NCBI GenBank assembly: GCA_029261395.1
Contig: JAJDBJ010000029.1
Coordinates: 1 to 64,000, forward strand
DNA from: Nitrospinaceae bacterium
GTDB taxonomy: Bacteria > Nitrospinota > Nitrospinia > Nitrospinales > Nitrospinaceae
Reading direction: 5' to 3'
DNA: 64,000 nt
In this document: in pieces, positions 4,186 to 43,308 of the stretch
Numbering within the stretch: the stretch's first letter is position 1
Layout: each line of letters opens with the position of its first letter
Notes under the pieces: model-generated
What the model saw: the letters and a program-made list of their open reading frames with translations, nothing else
What the model was told of the DNA's origin: nothing
Database searches by the model: none
Made by a program: the position numbers and the translations under genes

Positions 4186-4711
4186 CCAGGTTCTCCTTGT
4201 ATGGCCAAAAGGCTTAAAATTCAATAGGTTCAAGCCACATGGGGCCGCAATCATCGGTAAATTATCGGGCTTTTAAAGTTGATGAGGGGTAGCTGGACAC
4301 GAAGTTATTGTCTCGAATGGTGCGAATTATGTTTGATTCTGTGTATAATGCCCCCTCGTATATTGAGAGGATTATAACTCAATCCAGTTCGAATGAGGAT
4401 GTAAAAATTTATCACGAACGACTCCGGATTGAGGCCATTGAATTCAATTGTTTGCTCAATGCGCAAGCGCCTCTCGGATTGTTTCTGAGGGGTATTTCCC
4501 GGAAGGTTTCGCCACCCGGCAGGGATGGGGAAGGCTTCTGAGAAACAGGGTTTTATATTGACACCCTGTATATTTTTGCTAGAATTCGCAAGCAGTTGAC
4601 ACTGTTGGTTTTTCAAGGCATTACGTCGCATCCAGCAGGGCTGTGTTTGTGGATTTTTCACCTGATAACTAATTCAAATTGAGTTTATAGATTAAGGGAG
4701 AGACTAACCCC
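4186..4711. other. 526-base divergent intergenic region
   Basis: I see no convincing gene here. Two short open frames (4308-4541 + and 4305-4661 -) lack ribosome sites and family resemblance. The right end holds the sigma70-type promoter for the stress-protein gene, leaving a 5' leader of about 120 bases. A second TTGACA occurs at 4595-4600 without a clear -10. The middle has GC-rich segments (4460-4540), but I could not match them to any riboswitch class. Confidence 0.6.
4558..4585 (+). promoter_or_regulatory. sigma70-type promoter of the USP/PCP-reductase gene
   Basis: TTGACA at 4558-4563 and TAGAAT at 4580-4585 are separated by 16 bases, with a full match at -35 and 5 of 6 at -10. Transcription would start near 4592, giving a leader of about 120 bases before the ATG at 4712. 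Confidence 0.7.
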
Positions 4712-6760
4712 ATGTTCAAAAATATTTACATTCCAGTCGATAACTCCGACTACTCGAATGCTTGTGTTGAGTTGGCTTTGGAATTTGCCAAGGGATCGGA
4801 AGACACCACCATTTCGGCCAGTCATGTGTATGCGGCTAAAATGCATGACGTCCGCTTCCGCCAGATGGAAAGCGGTTTGCCTGAAGAATATCAGGACGAG
4901 CAGGAACTCGAAAAGCAGAGAGCAATCCATGACCAGCTCATCACCAAGGGGATGGAGGTTATCACGGATTCCTATCTGGATGTACCGAAGTACAAATGTA
5001 AGGCGAACAACATTCCCTTTGTCGGCAAATCACTGGAAGGACGGAACTGGATCGAGTTGGTCCGGGATATTAAAGAGTCCAATTACGATTTGGTTATCAT
5101 AGGAGCCTTGGGTCTGGGCGCGATTAAAGACAGTCAGATCGGTACCGTGACCGAGCGGGTGATCCGCCGTATTGAGACCGACACTTTGATCGTCAAGCAT
5201 GTGCCCGCCATTCACGAACAGCAATCTTCCAGCGACAAGATCGTCGTTGCGGTGGACGGCAGTGGACAATCATACGGTGGTTTGAAAACCGCCATTGACA
5301 TGGCGAAAGCACTGAACAAGCCTCTCGAAGTGATCTCCACGTTCGATCCTTATTTTCACTATGCCATGTTCAACAGCCTGACCGGTGTGCTCTCCAAAGA
5401 TGCCGCCAAGGTGTTCAAGTTTGAACAGCAGGAAAAACTGCACGAAGACATCATCGACAAGGGTCTTGCCAAAATTTACCAGTCCCATCTCGAAGTCTCC
5501 CGGAAAATGGTGGAAGACGAGGGCATGGAATGTACCATTCGATTGCTGGACGGCAAGGTGTTTGAGAAAGTCCTGCAGTATGCCCGCGAGGAAAATCCTT
5601 ATATGTTGATTCTCGGCCGCATCGGGGTTCACAGTGCACCGGATATGGATATCGGCGGCAACACGGAAAACCTGCTACGCATGGTGCCGTGTAACGTCTT
5701 CCTGTCCAGCCGGGTTTACAAGCCGCCGGTTGATATGCTGGCGGAAGAAAGTATCGACTGGACCGCCGAGGCGAAAGAACGCTTGAAAAGAATCCCCGGT
5801 TTTGTACGCCCCATGGCGACTTCCGCAATTCTGCGCTACGCCTTGGAACGCGGTCATAGCATGATCACCTCCAGTGTTATTACCGAGGCGTGTGAAAAGA
5901 TTCTGCCCGCCGGAGCCATGCAGGCGATGTACGGTATCGGTGACCAGATGCGAGACAAGGTGGCACGAGGCGAAGATCCTCTGGAAGGCATGATTGAGGA
6001 TCGAGGCCGAGCGATGGAACAGAAATTTGCTGAAGAAGTCGCCAAGGTTCAGGAACAAAAGGTTGAGGATCAGAAAACTCTCAAATGTAACGAGTGCGGC
6101 AGTATCGTGGATGAAGATGTTGTTAAGTGCGGTGTCTGTGGTGCCGGAGCCGAGAGTTTGTTCACGATGGACAAATCGGGATTCCAGGCCGACAGCGAAG
6201 AGAAGAGTGATTCCACAACGGTCACTACTTTCGATTCGGTACAGGTGACTTGGACGCAGGATGCGTTGGATTATCTGAACCAGTTCCCCGAAGGTCATAT
6301 TCGGAGACGTGCCCATGCACGGATTGAGAAAAATGCGCGGGTACAGAAAGTCGCTACAATCTCGGTGGCTTTTGCCAAGGATCTGCTCAACGACAGTCAG
6401 GCCGCTGAGTCAAAGCCCGCTAATGGTAATGGCCATGACGCGACTCAAACGCCTACCGAAGGATTCAAGGCTTACGGAGATTTGCTTAAATTCGAAGGTA
6501 AAAATTTCAGCAAAGGCGTTGAAATTGATCCCTCTCAGTATTTCTGGTCGGATGATGCGATTGGCCGAGTTGAGAAAGTACCCAAGGGTTTCATGAGGGA
6601 CAACACCATGGAGCGAGTGTTGGATTACGCTCATTCTCAGAATACCAATAACATCAGTCTGGAATTTTGTGAAAAAGGGATTGAGGAGTCCGTCAAGGTC
6701 ATGAATGAATTGGTCAAAAACGGAGCAACTCTGGAAGATTTTATCCCGCAAAAGAAATAA
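4712..6760 (+). CDS. tandem universal-stress-protein / PCP-reductase-domain fusion with zinc ribbon
   Basis: Residues 1-165 and about 174-335 are two UspA-type domains; the first opens with KNIYIPVDNS and the second with KIVVAVDGSG. From 348 there follow three segments of the small helical PCP_red type (light-independent protochlorophyllide reductase C-terminal domain): one at IDWTAEAKERLKRIPGFVR, a second around W514 and a third around W612. Between the first and second sits a CX2C-X10-CX2C zinc ribbon (Cys 459, 462, 473, 476). No membrane segment or signal is visible, so it is cytosolic. The start has a GGGAGAG site. It is followed by two hairpin terminators, so it is monocistronic. USP domains usually bind ATP/AMP; what the PCP_red modules do outside chlorophyll synthesis is not established, so function is unassigned. 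Confidence 0.88.
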   Translation: MFKNIYIPVDNSDYSNACVELALEFAKGSEDTTISASHVYAAKMHDVRFRQMESGLPEEYQDEQELEKQRAIHDQLITKGMEVITDSYLDVPKYKCKANNIPFVGKSLEGRNWIELVRDIKESNYDLVIIGALGLGAIKDSQIGTVTERVIRRIETDTLIVKHVPAIHEQQSSSDKIVVAVDGSGQSYGGLKTAIDMAKALNKPLEVISTFDPYFHYAMFNSLTGVLSKDAAKVFKFEQQEKLHEDIIDKGLAKIYQSHLEVSRKMVEDEGMECTIRLLDGKVFEKVLQYAREENPYMLILGRIGVHSAPDMDIGGNTENLLRMVPCNVFLSSRVYKPPVDMLAEESIDWTAEAKERLKRIPGFVRPMATSAILRYALERGHSMITSSVITEACEKILPAGAMQAMYGIGDQMRDKVARGEDPLEGMIEDRGRAMEQKFAEEVAKVQEQKVEDQKTLKCNECGSIVDEDVVKCGVCGAGAESLFTMDKSGFQADSEEKSDSTTVTTFDSVQVTWTQDALDYLNQFPEGHIRRRAHARIEKNARVQKVATISVAFAKDLLNDSQAAESKPANGNGHDATQTPTEGFKAYGDLLKFEGKNFSKGVEIDPSQYFWSDDAIGRVEKVPKGFMRDNTMERVLDYAHSQNTNNISLEFCEKGIEESVKVMNELVKNGATLEDFIPQKK

Positions 6761-6834: not shown

Positions 6835-6878
6835 AAACCCCTGTTGCGTTGTATCTCTTATGACGAGCAGGGGTTTTT
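6835..6878 (+). terminator. second hairpin terminator before the ABC exporter
   Basis: AAACCCCTG (6835-6843) pairs with CAGGGGTTT (6868-6876) and runs into five T. The 24-base loop is long, but the stem and tail are good. Together with the hairpin at 6779 it isolates the stress gene from the following operon. Confidence 0.6.
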
Positions 6879-40626: not shown

Positions 40627-43308
40627 ATGACAGAAGAACCGAATCGAAAAGAAGGGGAGTTTGACGAAACTACCTCGTATAGTTTCCTCTATTTCCTGGT
40701 GGCTGGAGCCACCTTGTTTGTTACCTTGTGGGCATTCTGGGATGACGAATACATCCGTCGCGGATACAAAGAATTTCAGGATGTTTTTTACAAGGAGCAG
40801 TACGCTCGCGCCGAAACTGAATATAAAGAGATCAGTGAAAAAATCCGGGCTAAAGAACAAGAAATTTTAGCAGGCATTCAATCGGAAGAGCAAAAGCTGG
40901 GTAATAATAAAGAATACGAAAAACTCACAGAAGCGGCCTGGGAAGCGCAGATAAATTTGGCTGATGCCGTTGAAGAGCAAAAGTTCGCCAAGAGTCGGTT
41001 GGATGAATATTATTACTATTACAAAAAAGCCATGCATGAAGGTAAAAACTTCGAAGTCCAGCTGGCCAAAGTCCATAATACGGAAAAGGAGATTAAGGAA
41101 TTCGATCCGATAATTGCTGATTTGACGGCCAAAAGGGACGAAGCCGAGGAAAAACTACTCAAATTCAAGAGCAAGAAAGAAAATCTGGAAAAAGAACTTG
41201 CCAAACTGGTCAGCGATAAGCAGATTCTTGATGGGCGAATGGATTATTACAAGCCGTTCCCTTTTTTCTGGAAACCCGCTGAGATTTTGCAAACGGTGAT
41301 CCCGTCTTACGGTAAAAACAACTTCCAGGAAACCACCTACAAAGTCGACCGGTGTCAGACCTGCCATATAGCCTACGATGATCCTTATTATAAGAACCAT
41401 GAACAGCCGCTCAAAACACATCCCAATTTAGATATTTACATTAAAAAGCACGATCCCCAGGCGACGGGTTGTACTTGGTGTCACAAAGGGCAGGGCACCG
41501 CCACCGCACCCACCGAGGATGCGCATGGTTCGCATCACGAAATGGATCAATCTACAGGTATCAACGAACCTATTCTTTTAGGTAGCCTGATGCAGGCCAA
41601 TTGCCGGAACTGTCATGCTCCGCAGGTTGAGTTGGAAGGGGCTCCGATACTTTCCAAAGGCAAGAAGTTGTTCATCAAGCTGGGTTGTCATGGATGTCAC
41701 TTGGTGGACGGTTACCAAAAAGAGCGTAAGGTGGGTCCCAGCCTGCTTCGTATTGCTTCGAAAGTGGACCCGAGCTGGCTGGTCCGCTGGGTCAAGAAAC
41801 CCAAGAATTATCTACCCAAAACCCGTATGCCGTATTTTAGTATGAGTGACGAGGATACACTGGCTATTTCGGCATACCTCTGGCAGGTTTCTGAAAAGGG
41901 TTATCAGGTTGCAGAGAAATATCAGGGTGGGGATACCGCTAAAGGTAAAAAACTATTTGAAATAGTTGGTTGTGAGGCCTGCCACAAAGTCAATGGCAAT
42001 GGCGAGCTGTTTGGCCCGGATTTAACACGCATCGGCCAAAAGGTGAATCCGGATTGGCTGGTCAGCTGGATCAACGATCCAGACGAGTACAATCACAACA
42101 GCACTATGCCGAATCTAAGGTTAACGCTGGAACAGGCTTCCGATATCACGGCGTACCTATTGCAATTTGATAAAATGCGGCCCCAAGAGGGTGTGGAAGA
42201 GCGACTCAACAATCCTGAGCTGGCCAAGTTAGGTGAGATCCTGGTTCGACGCCGAGGGTGTTTCGCCTGCCACGATATTAAGGGGATGGAAAAAGAAGGC
42301 CGCATTGCTCCAGAGCTGACTGCATTCGGCAACAAGCAAGTGCGGGAACTGGAGTTTGGTGACTCTCATATTCCCCATACCTGGGAATCCTGGGCACGCA
42401 CCAAGTTGGAAAATCCCAATGCCTATCGTACCGAGCGAATACTGGACAAGATGCCCAATTTCGAACTCGACTCGGATGAAGTGGAAGCCCTGTTGGTTCT
42501 GCTCAAAGGATTCAACGGAGTTAAAATTCCACAGCAATATCGGAAAAATTACAACGACGAGGAATTGACCATTGAGAATGGACGCCGGTTGATCACTCGC
42601 TACAATTGCCGCGGATGCCATGTTGTAGAACGCACCGGGGGTGATATTCAGGAATATCTGTCATCAAAAACTCAGTACCCGCCCCCTCTGGAGTTGGGGG
42701 ATTACCATGTAGGCGAACGTCTGAAGGGTTCCTGGCTGTTCTCGTTCTTGAAAAAACCCACGCCAGTGAGAACTTGGATGAAGGTCCGTATGCCAACGTT
42801 TTCCTTCACTGATAAAGAGGTTCGCGATTTAACAGCCTACTTCGAAGCGATGTCGCCGAATGAGCTCAAGTATGAAGCTGACGTACACATCAAAAAGAGC
42901 AAAGAGAGCATTCAGACTGGAGTGAAGATCGTCAATTATATGGATTGTGGAAAATGCCATGATGATGGCGCCAAGGGAATTGATTTCTCCATAGCCGCTC
43001 AACGGTTAAAACAAGACTGGATTCCAAAATGGCTTAAAGATACCCGGGGAATGATTCCGTGGACCCTGATGCCTGATCATTGGACTCAGAAAGAGGGTAA
43101 ATATACCATACCGACGAAATTCAGTGATCTCCGCGATTTCGAGGAAGGGAATGTTGATGCCCATCTTCAGCATATTAGCGACTTGATCCTCTCTTACAAT
43201 ACCTCCGAGGGCATTAATTTTGACGCTTCTCTCGGGGGCGGTGGTGATGAAGAAAGTGAGGATGAAGCACCTGCCGAGGATGAAGAAGAGGACGAAGAGG
43301 ACGAATAG
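40627..43308 (+). CDS. membrane-anchored coiled-coil octahaem cytochrome c
   Basis: An 893-residue protein. One N-terminal membrane helix (about 18-38, SFLYFLVAGATLFVTLWAF) is followed by a long coiled coil (about 50-205, rich in Glu and Lys) and then eight CXXCH haem sites at residues 243, 282, 326, 354, 449, 545, 661 and 774. Sites 4 to 7 lie in repeated monohaem-type modules with GPxL and later TxMP/RMP Met-ligand sequences. The C-terminus is acidic, ending EDEEEDEEDE. It lies 14 bases after subunit IV and is thus the electron outlet of the complex in place of cytochrome c1/f. The haem part must be periplasmic. Such an octahaem, coiled-coil version is unusual. Confidence 0.93.
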   Translation: MTEEPNRKEGEFDETTSYSFLYFLVAGATLFVTLWAFWDDEYIRRGYKEFQDVFYKEQYARAETEYKEISEKIRAKEQEILAGIQSEEQKLGNNKEYEKLTEAAWEAQINLADAVEEQKFAKSRLDEYYYYYKKAMHEGKNFEVQLAKVHNTEKEIKEFDPIIADLTAKRDEAEEKLLKFKSKKENLEKELAKLVSDKQILDGRMDYYKPFPFFWKPAEILQTVIPSYGKNNFQETTYKVDRCQTCHIAYDDPYYKNHEQPLKTHPNLDIYIKKHDPQATGCTWCHKGQGTATAPTEDAHGSHHEMDQSTGINEPILLGSLMQANCRNCHAPQVELEGAPILSKGKKLFIKLGCHGCHLVDGYQKERKVGPSLLRIASKVDPSWLVRWVKKPKNYLPKTRMPYFSMSDEDTLAISAYLWQVSEKGYQVAEKYQGGDTAKGKKLFEIVGCEACHKVNGNGELFGPDLTRIGQKVNPDWLVSWINDPDEYNHNSTMPNLRLTLEQASDITAYLLQFDKMRPQEGVEERLNNPELAKLGEILVRRRGCFACHDIKGMEKEGRIAPELTAFGNKQVRELEFGDSHIPHTWESWARTKLENPNAYRTERILDKMPNFELDSDEVEALLVLLKGFNGVKIPQQYRKNYNDEELTIENGRRLITRYNCRGCHVVERTGGDIQEYLSSKTQYPPPLELGDYHVGERLKGSWLFSFLKKPTPVRTWMKVRMPTFSFTDKEVRDLTAYFEAMSPNELKYEADVHIKKSKESIQTGVKIVNYMDCGKCHDDGAKGIDFSIAAQRLKQDWIPKWLKDTRGMIPWTLMPDHWTQKEGKYTIPTKFSDLRDFEEGNVDAHLQHISDLILSYNTSEGINFDASLGGGGDEESEDEAPAEDEEEDEEDE

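Follow-up and report, generated by a model that had tools for sequence, protein, structure and literature searches.

The window analyzed, a 64,000-nucleotide stretch of DNA from a Nitrospinaceae bacterium, carries on its forward strand an ATG-initiated gene (positions 4712 to 6760, including the stop codon) for a 682-amino-acid protein, here designated USP-PCP, with the domain order Usp-Usp-PCP_red-ribbon-PCP_red-PCP_red from the N to the C terminus. Pfam searches gave 105.1 bits for Usp (cutoff, 24), in two stretches, and 91.6 bits for PCP_red (PF08369; cutoff, 32.5), in three, in agreement with the first-pass annotation, which had claimed two UspA domains and proposed the PF08369 search. No output domain (DNA binding, kinase, or cyclase) was found in the protein by the Pfam search. 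The full-length AlphaFold2 model had a pLDDT of 77.8 and a pTM of 0.51, the orientation of the domains being uncertain, and a model of the C-terminal half (residues 336 to 682) had a pLDDT of 77.6 and a pTM of 0.32. Upstream of the gene, a sigma-70-type promoter-like site, TTGACA-16-TAGAAT (4558 to 4585, forward strand), matches the consensus at 11 of 12 positions; such sites were no more numerous in the region than in shuffled sequences, and this one is to be read as a consensus match only. On the 3' side, a terminator-like CCCCTG...CAGGGG-TTTTT stretch was noticed by eye at 6838 to 6878, where the scan made no call.

Usp domain 1 (residues 1 to 162; 4712 to 5197, forward strand) was delimited by Pfam PF00582 and by Foldseek matches to tandem USP folds. 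The ATP-binding motif G-2x-G-9x-G(S/T) is present in it as GALGLGAIKDSQIGT (G131-x2-G134-x9-G144-T145; 5102 to 5146, forward strand, read from the sequence) and is conserved across relatives as GALGLGAIKDSQ.GT. Usp domain 2 (approximately residues 175 to 334; 5234 to 5713, forward strand) corresponds to the second Usp stretch, to strands and helices of the model, and to invariant columns, and contains the family-specific FDPYFHY stretch. In its counterpart motif, G302-x2-G305-x9-G315-G316 (5615 to 5659, forward strand), the S/T is replaced by G; this position reads GS in Nitrospirota and GG, instead of G(S/T), in nearly all Nitrospinota, the window protein included. Tandem USPs headed the Foldseek list of the N-terminal half, among them the ATP-bound TTHA0350 (3ab8); KCC/NKCC transporters ranked below the USPs in the full-length list. 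Like TTHA0350, Rv2623 (3cis), and UspE (5cb0), the window protein has two Usp domains of the same fold in one chain, and its first nucleotide motif is intact. However, those chains comprise about 240 to 310 residues and stop after the second Usp domain, whereas USP-PCP has some 340 additional residues, containing the PCP_red modules and the ribbon, as well as the family-specific invariant stretches FDPYFHY and RFRQMESGLP.

The three PCP_red modules, expected near residues 348, 514, and 612, were found at residues 350 to 393 (5759 to 5890), 514 to 554 (6251 to 6373), and 612 to 654 (6545 to 6673), all on the forward strand. In the genome-wide PCP_red search they scored singly 57.3, 24.4, and 20.1 bits, respectively, so that only module 1 exceeded the cutoff on its own. 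An HMM built from 128 PCP_red modules that all came from non-USP proteins gave 69.8, 22.7, and 33.7 bits for modules 1, 2, and 3, while the best of 1,000 shuffles reached 10.0, 6.3, and 4.7 bits and a control segment 2.9 bits. All three share a strand-helix-helix-strand-helix pattern in the AlphaFold2 model, and in Foldseek the C-terminal half had its best match in 2kru, the solved PCP_red domain of BchB (rmsd, 1.6 Å; target TM score, 0.78). Given the scores against shuffles, the common predicted pattern, and the match to 2kru, modules 2 and 3 are, as judged from profile and model, genuine despite their single scores below the cutoff, and all three modules can be taken as real.

2kru and 2l09 were the best Foldseek matches of the C-terminal half, with modest E values of 0.003 to 0.006. 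After the PCP_red structures came many weak matches (E values of approximately 0.1 to 0.7), RuvBL and other AAA+ ATPase subunits among them; the PCP_red fold may resemble an AAA+ helical domain. By sequence and predicted fold, the module is the same as that at the C terminus of BchB/ChlB (2kru, 2xdq, and 2ynm) and that of BchZ, but there a single copy is attached to a reductase, whereas USP-PCP carries three on a USP protein. The free-standing Asr4154 of Nostoc (2l09) likewise has PCP_red outside a reductase subunit, although this 62-residue protein consists of one short module, without a Usp domain or ribbon. Membership of DPOR subunit B (BchB/ChlB) requires an N-terminal Oxidored_nitro domain and a full-length equivalog score; the window protein is not a member, scoring 45.6 bits against the 490 of TIGR01278, with a best stretch that covered only the last ∼50 model positions.

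Between modules 1 and 2 lies the ribbon, C459-x2-C462-x10-C473-x2-C476 (6086 to 6139, forward strand), at the position occupied by a rubredoxin-like domain in the Nitrospirota orthologues. The CX2C-X10-CX2C spacing described in the first-pass annotation is exact. The window ribbon scored below the cutoffs for both Zn_ribbon_3 (20.1 versus 27 bits) and RUBY_RBDX (12.2 versus 26.5 bits). RUBY_RBDX, the rubrerythrin-type rubredoxin model, exceeded its cutoff in the orthologues L132, L190, and L053 (27.4, 31.5, and 33.7 bits, respectively), which come from Nitrospirota and a distant Nitrospinota relative. In Nitrospirota the ribbon is, by these scores, rubredoxin-like, so that its designation as a zinc ribbon is not established. 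Wherever the ribbon of a relative could be scored, all four cysteines were conserved.

Five PCP_red proteins were found in the genome, USP-PCP and four others; genome-wide statements here are based on family searches, and the genome is 97% complete, so that single absences carry some risk. One of the four contains three PCP_red modules in 283 amino acids. Another, a 145-amino-acid ribbon protein with two CxxC motifs and a C-terminal PCP_red, is encoded directly after an Mrp/NUBPL-type ATPase, a pairing that recurs in 37 of the 52 short PCP_red open reading frames examined; here the ribbon-PCP_red gene lies within ∼10 bp downstream of that for the Fe-S carrier ATPase (L009:4149-5489, G000:C72). 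The third, a radical SAM/SPASM protein of 449 amino acids with a C-terminal PCP_red (rSAM-PCP), scored 325.6 bits on NirJ2 and 312.5 bits on AhbD heme b synthase and is the only AhbD/NirJ2-like radical SAM enzyme of the genome. The fourth (HemQ-PCP; L011:4956-5906, reverse strand, G000:C58) has 316 amino acids and joins an N-terminal PCP_red to a chlorite dismutase/HemQ domain (Chlor_dismutase, 195.9 bits).

HemQ-PCP was the sole full-length Chlor_dismutase match in the genome, the other match reaching 26 bits. Its best match among solved structures was coproheme decarboxylase (1e-25, versus 6e-17 for chlorite dismutase), and identification as a chlorite dismutase was set aside, since by sequence the coproheme decarboxylases fit better. 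Its nearest solved relative is therefore HemQ/ChdC, to which it adds the N-terminal PCP_red; its best NCBIfam score, on NF042928, was 142.8 bits, below the equivalog cutoff of 235. The final conversion, of coproheme to heme b, can be carried out by either of two enzymes, HemQ or AhbD (PMC7242693). No match above the cutoff was found for HemN in the genome (best, 190 versus 325 bits; probably HemW), and the single ferrochelatase gene forms a hemE-hemH pair, hemE having been read from the sequence. As HemN gave no match above the cutoff and hemE and hemH are adjacent, heme b is presumably made via the PCP_red-tagged HemQ. In the window itself, positions 40627 to 43308 (forward strand) encode an 893-amino-acid protein of the multiheme cytochrome c type with several CxxCH motifs, which is consistent with a high heme demand of the organism. 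The nitrogenase/DPOR-type Oxidored_nitro family (PF00148) had no match genome-wide; thus, the absence of chlorophyll genes noticed in the window holds for the whole genome, and a leftover of chlorophyll synthesis was ruled out.

The fusion protein occurs throughout Nitrospinota and Nitrospirota, with 305 loci confirmed by pattern and tblastn. The relatives compared were the best 80 of the 305 loci, from one named-genome scan, so the picture beyond these two phyla is incomplete; among those best 80, the named relatives belong to Nitrospinota/Nitrospina and, at 46 to 47% identity, to Nitrospirota/Nitrospira. Three loci labeled Gammaproteobacteria, Nitrospirae, and Nitrospinota (L105 in G086, L084, and L111) showed 66%, 68%, and 46% identity to the window protein, respectively; their fusions fit other phyla by identity, and they are probably mislabeled or misbinned contigs of metagenome-assembled genomes. 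The first-pass annotation had named a fusion both common and characterized as evidence against its reading: the fusion is common, but no characterization of it was found in the openly accessible literature on PCP_red or protochlorophyllide reductase in connection with HemQ, universal stress proteins, or the genera Nitrospina and Nitrospira. PCP_red was found in 73 of the 77 genomes of the window's phylum, many with seven to nine modules spread over proteins of the same five sizes, in 78 of 148 genomes of the Nitrospirota phylum, and in 36 of 399 in the phylum of the Gammaproteobacteria-labeled locus (a Pseudomonadota-like sample), where the two large-ORF PCP_red proteins checked were BchB and BchZ. 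PCP_red-HemQ proteins are also present in Nitrospirota (L183, L194, L215, and L219).

Of the Nitrospirota loci, 34 could be evaluated, and in 31 of them the rSAM-PCP gene lies directly downstream of the USP-PCP gene, at −40 to +151 bp; in nearly all of these 31 it is followed by a gene for a CopD-like membrane protein. This small conserved protein (e.g., L109:9466-9969 and L121:8001-8441) resembles CopD, DUF4149, and UPF0093; its assignment as HemJ was not retained, as these scores were weak and all below the cutoff. The USP-PCP/rSAM-PCP pair was also present in three genomes of the Pseudomonadota-like sample (G269, G495, and G254). In G495, the genes for USP-PCP, rSAM-PCP, and protoporphyrinogen oxidase (TIGR00562; 258 bits; cutoff, 97.85) follow one another in this order and overlap, and in G254 a protoporphyrinogen oxidase gene (238 bits) lies beside the pair on the other strand. 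In G082, it is the HemQ-PCP gene that adjoins protoporphyrinogen oxidase (321 bits). Fusions add to these links: an open reading frame overlapping the USP-PCP gene of L185 encodes a radical SAM protein with four PCP_red-like modules, and in L187 USP-USP-PCP is joined to a stretch resembling the triple-PCP_red protein. PCP_red arrays reach five modules among the relatives. A 474-amino-acid protein of a class-level relative (L062:2099-3520, reverse strand, in G076) combines PCP_red-rubredoxin-PCP_red-PCP_red with a heme oxygenase-like diiron domain (RUBY_RBDX, 42.5 bits; PF14518, 111.6 bits) and is another oxidative enzyme joined to PCP_red and rubredoxin.

The best models for the rSAM-PCP proteins were NirJ2 (312 to 328 bits) and AhbD (301 to 332 bits). 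The radical SAM and AuxII cysteine motifs were kept in 51 of 51 of these proteins, and in the copy of the window genome the cysteines are spaced CX2CX5CX2CX17C, exactly as reported for AhbD (PMC10452713). In their best NCBIfam matches the rSAM-PCP proteins resemble the AhbD/NirJ radical SAM tetrapyrrole enzymes, but they score approximately 300 to 340 bits against a cutoff of 500 and carry an added C-terminal PCP_red. The scores on AhbD ranged from 285 to 344 bits, below the equivalog cutoff of 500, and two other genomes with rSAM-PCP also hold separate AhbD-like enzymes at 435 to 440 bits; identification as plain AhbD was therefore rejected. The rSAM-PCP proteins probably form a group apart from AhbD, and for the same two reasons their substrate may not be coproheme.

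By sequence, PCP_red carriers include BchB, BchZ, the HemQ-type coproheme decarboxylase, and the AhbD/NirJ2-like radical SAM enzyme, so that the module decorates at least four types of tetrapyrrole enzyme. Since the carriers (BchB/BchZ, HemQ type, and AhbD/NirJ type) are unrelated families that share tetrapyrrole chemistry, PCP_red is best read as a tetrapyrrole-pathway module, a small unit on tetrapyrrole-handling enzymes and their helpers. In turn, because PCP_red sits on chlorophyll and heme enzymes and a heme-type radical enzyme is encoded adjacently in many relatives, USP-PCP probably belongs to heme-cofactor handling, not to the general stress response. Within the PCP_red set, its closest tie would be to the radical SAM enzyme. 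We consider the chances about even that in the nitrite-oxidizing phyla a PCP_red-tagged heme/Fe-S cofactor set has USP-PCP as its hub, one of the ATP-binding type; from the genome context, it might also be worded as a hub or electron transfer partner of the PCP_red-tagged heme-cofactor set. Several observations count against a hub: the subcutoff rubredoxin score of the window ribbon and the G in place of S/T in Usp domain 2, the absence of an rSAM-PCP neighbor within the flanks covered for the 45 Nitrospinota-type loci, the remaining 3 of the 34 Nitrospirota loci, in which the membrane protein gene directly follows USP-PCP with no rSAM neighbor, the HemQ of Nitrospira, which is without PCP_red, the subcutoff AhbD scores of rSAM-PCP alongside separate AhbD-like enzymes in two genomes, and the uncertain domain orientation in the full-length model.

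If USP-PCP is such a hub, PCP_red would let tetrapyrrole enzymes and helpers find each other, or would hold the tetrapyrrole. The tandem Usp part would bind ATP or a similar nucleotide and switch or assemble the PCP_red set, and the three PCP_red modules would serve as docking sites, either for partners that carry PCP_red or for the tetrapyrrole on which these act. Electrons would move between the radical SAM enzyme and the rubredoxin-like ribbon, in one direction or the other. AhbD has been proposed to hand an electron to an external acceptor in oxidative decarboxylation (PMC10452713), and the rubredoxin-like ribbon of USP-PCP, whose gene adjoins that of an AhbD-like enzyme in many relatives, would be an attractive candidate for such an acceptor. 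Only tentatively, and with some doubt, do we extend the proposal to PCP_red as a general tetrapyrrole module and to a USP protein with a rubredoxin-like ribbon to which an AhbD/NirJ-type radical SAM enzyme would dock, be gated by it, and give up electrons; there would then be an undescribed heme-cofactor assembly system in the nitrite-oxidizing phyla, in which the USP protein would be nucleotide binding and a modified heme might be made.

Other explanations were considered. The first-pass annotation had proposed a redox or energy-status sensor, and in a free-standing sensor the Usp pair would sense ATP/AMP and the ribbon redox state, with PCP_red signaling to unspecified targets. The tandem USP fold, the kept nucleotide motif of Usp domain 1, and the four conserved ribbon cysteines all fit a sensor, as does the USP-PCP gene of the window genome, which has no radical SAM neighbor. 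We nevertheless regard it as unlikely: the links by gene order and fusion to a dedicated set of enzymes suggest a pathway-specific role, and the protein has no output domain. The PF08369 scores and the setting outside chlorophyll synthesis proved real. As to function, the comparison across genomes favors something narrower than a redox or energy sensor, namely, a PCP_red-tagged set around heme/Fe-S cofactors with a radical SAM partner, inside which the protein may have a nucleotide- or redox-responsive role.

PCP_red could, on the other hand, be a generic module for homotypic helical interactions, serving only to bring unrelated proteins together; its tetrapyrrole theme would then have arisen by chance spread. 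Arrays of up to five modules do resemble scaffolding, and neither the Mrp-adjacent ribbon protein nor the L062 diiron protein is a known tetrapyrrole enzyme, but four tetrapyrrole enzyme types together with adjacency to protoporphyrinogen oxidase are hard to obtain by chance, which makes this quite unlikely in our estimate. More improbable still is a SPASM-group maturase of peptides or proteins as the radical SAM partner, with USP-PCP as its substrate or substrate-presenting partner. The substrates of SPASM maturase systems are typically encoded by adjacent genes, as the adjacency of USP-PCP and rSAM-PCP would suit, and rSAM-PCP scores on many SPASM peptide-maturase models. Those scores are lower, however; its best models are the heme enzymes NirJ2 and AhbD, and in one genome the gene run extends into protoporphyrinogen oxidase.

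Through the HemQ-type and AhbD/NirJ-type proteins, unrelated families that include both known enzymes converting coproheme to heme b (PMC7242693), a module of chlorophyll synthesis is linked to heme biosynthesis in nonphototrophs. If PCP_red handles tetrapyrroles or docks the enzymes that do, this would help to explain the C-terminal domain of the dark protochlorophyllide reductase. Under the same condition, AhbD-type enzymes would gain a candidate for their proposed external electron acceptor, and a protein conserved in Nitrospina and Nitrospira, which are major nitrite oxidizers, would gain a place in a pathway.
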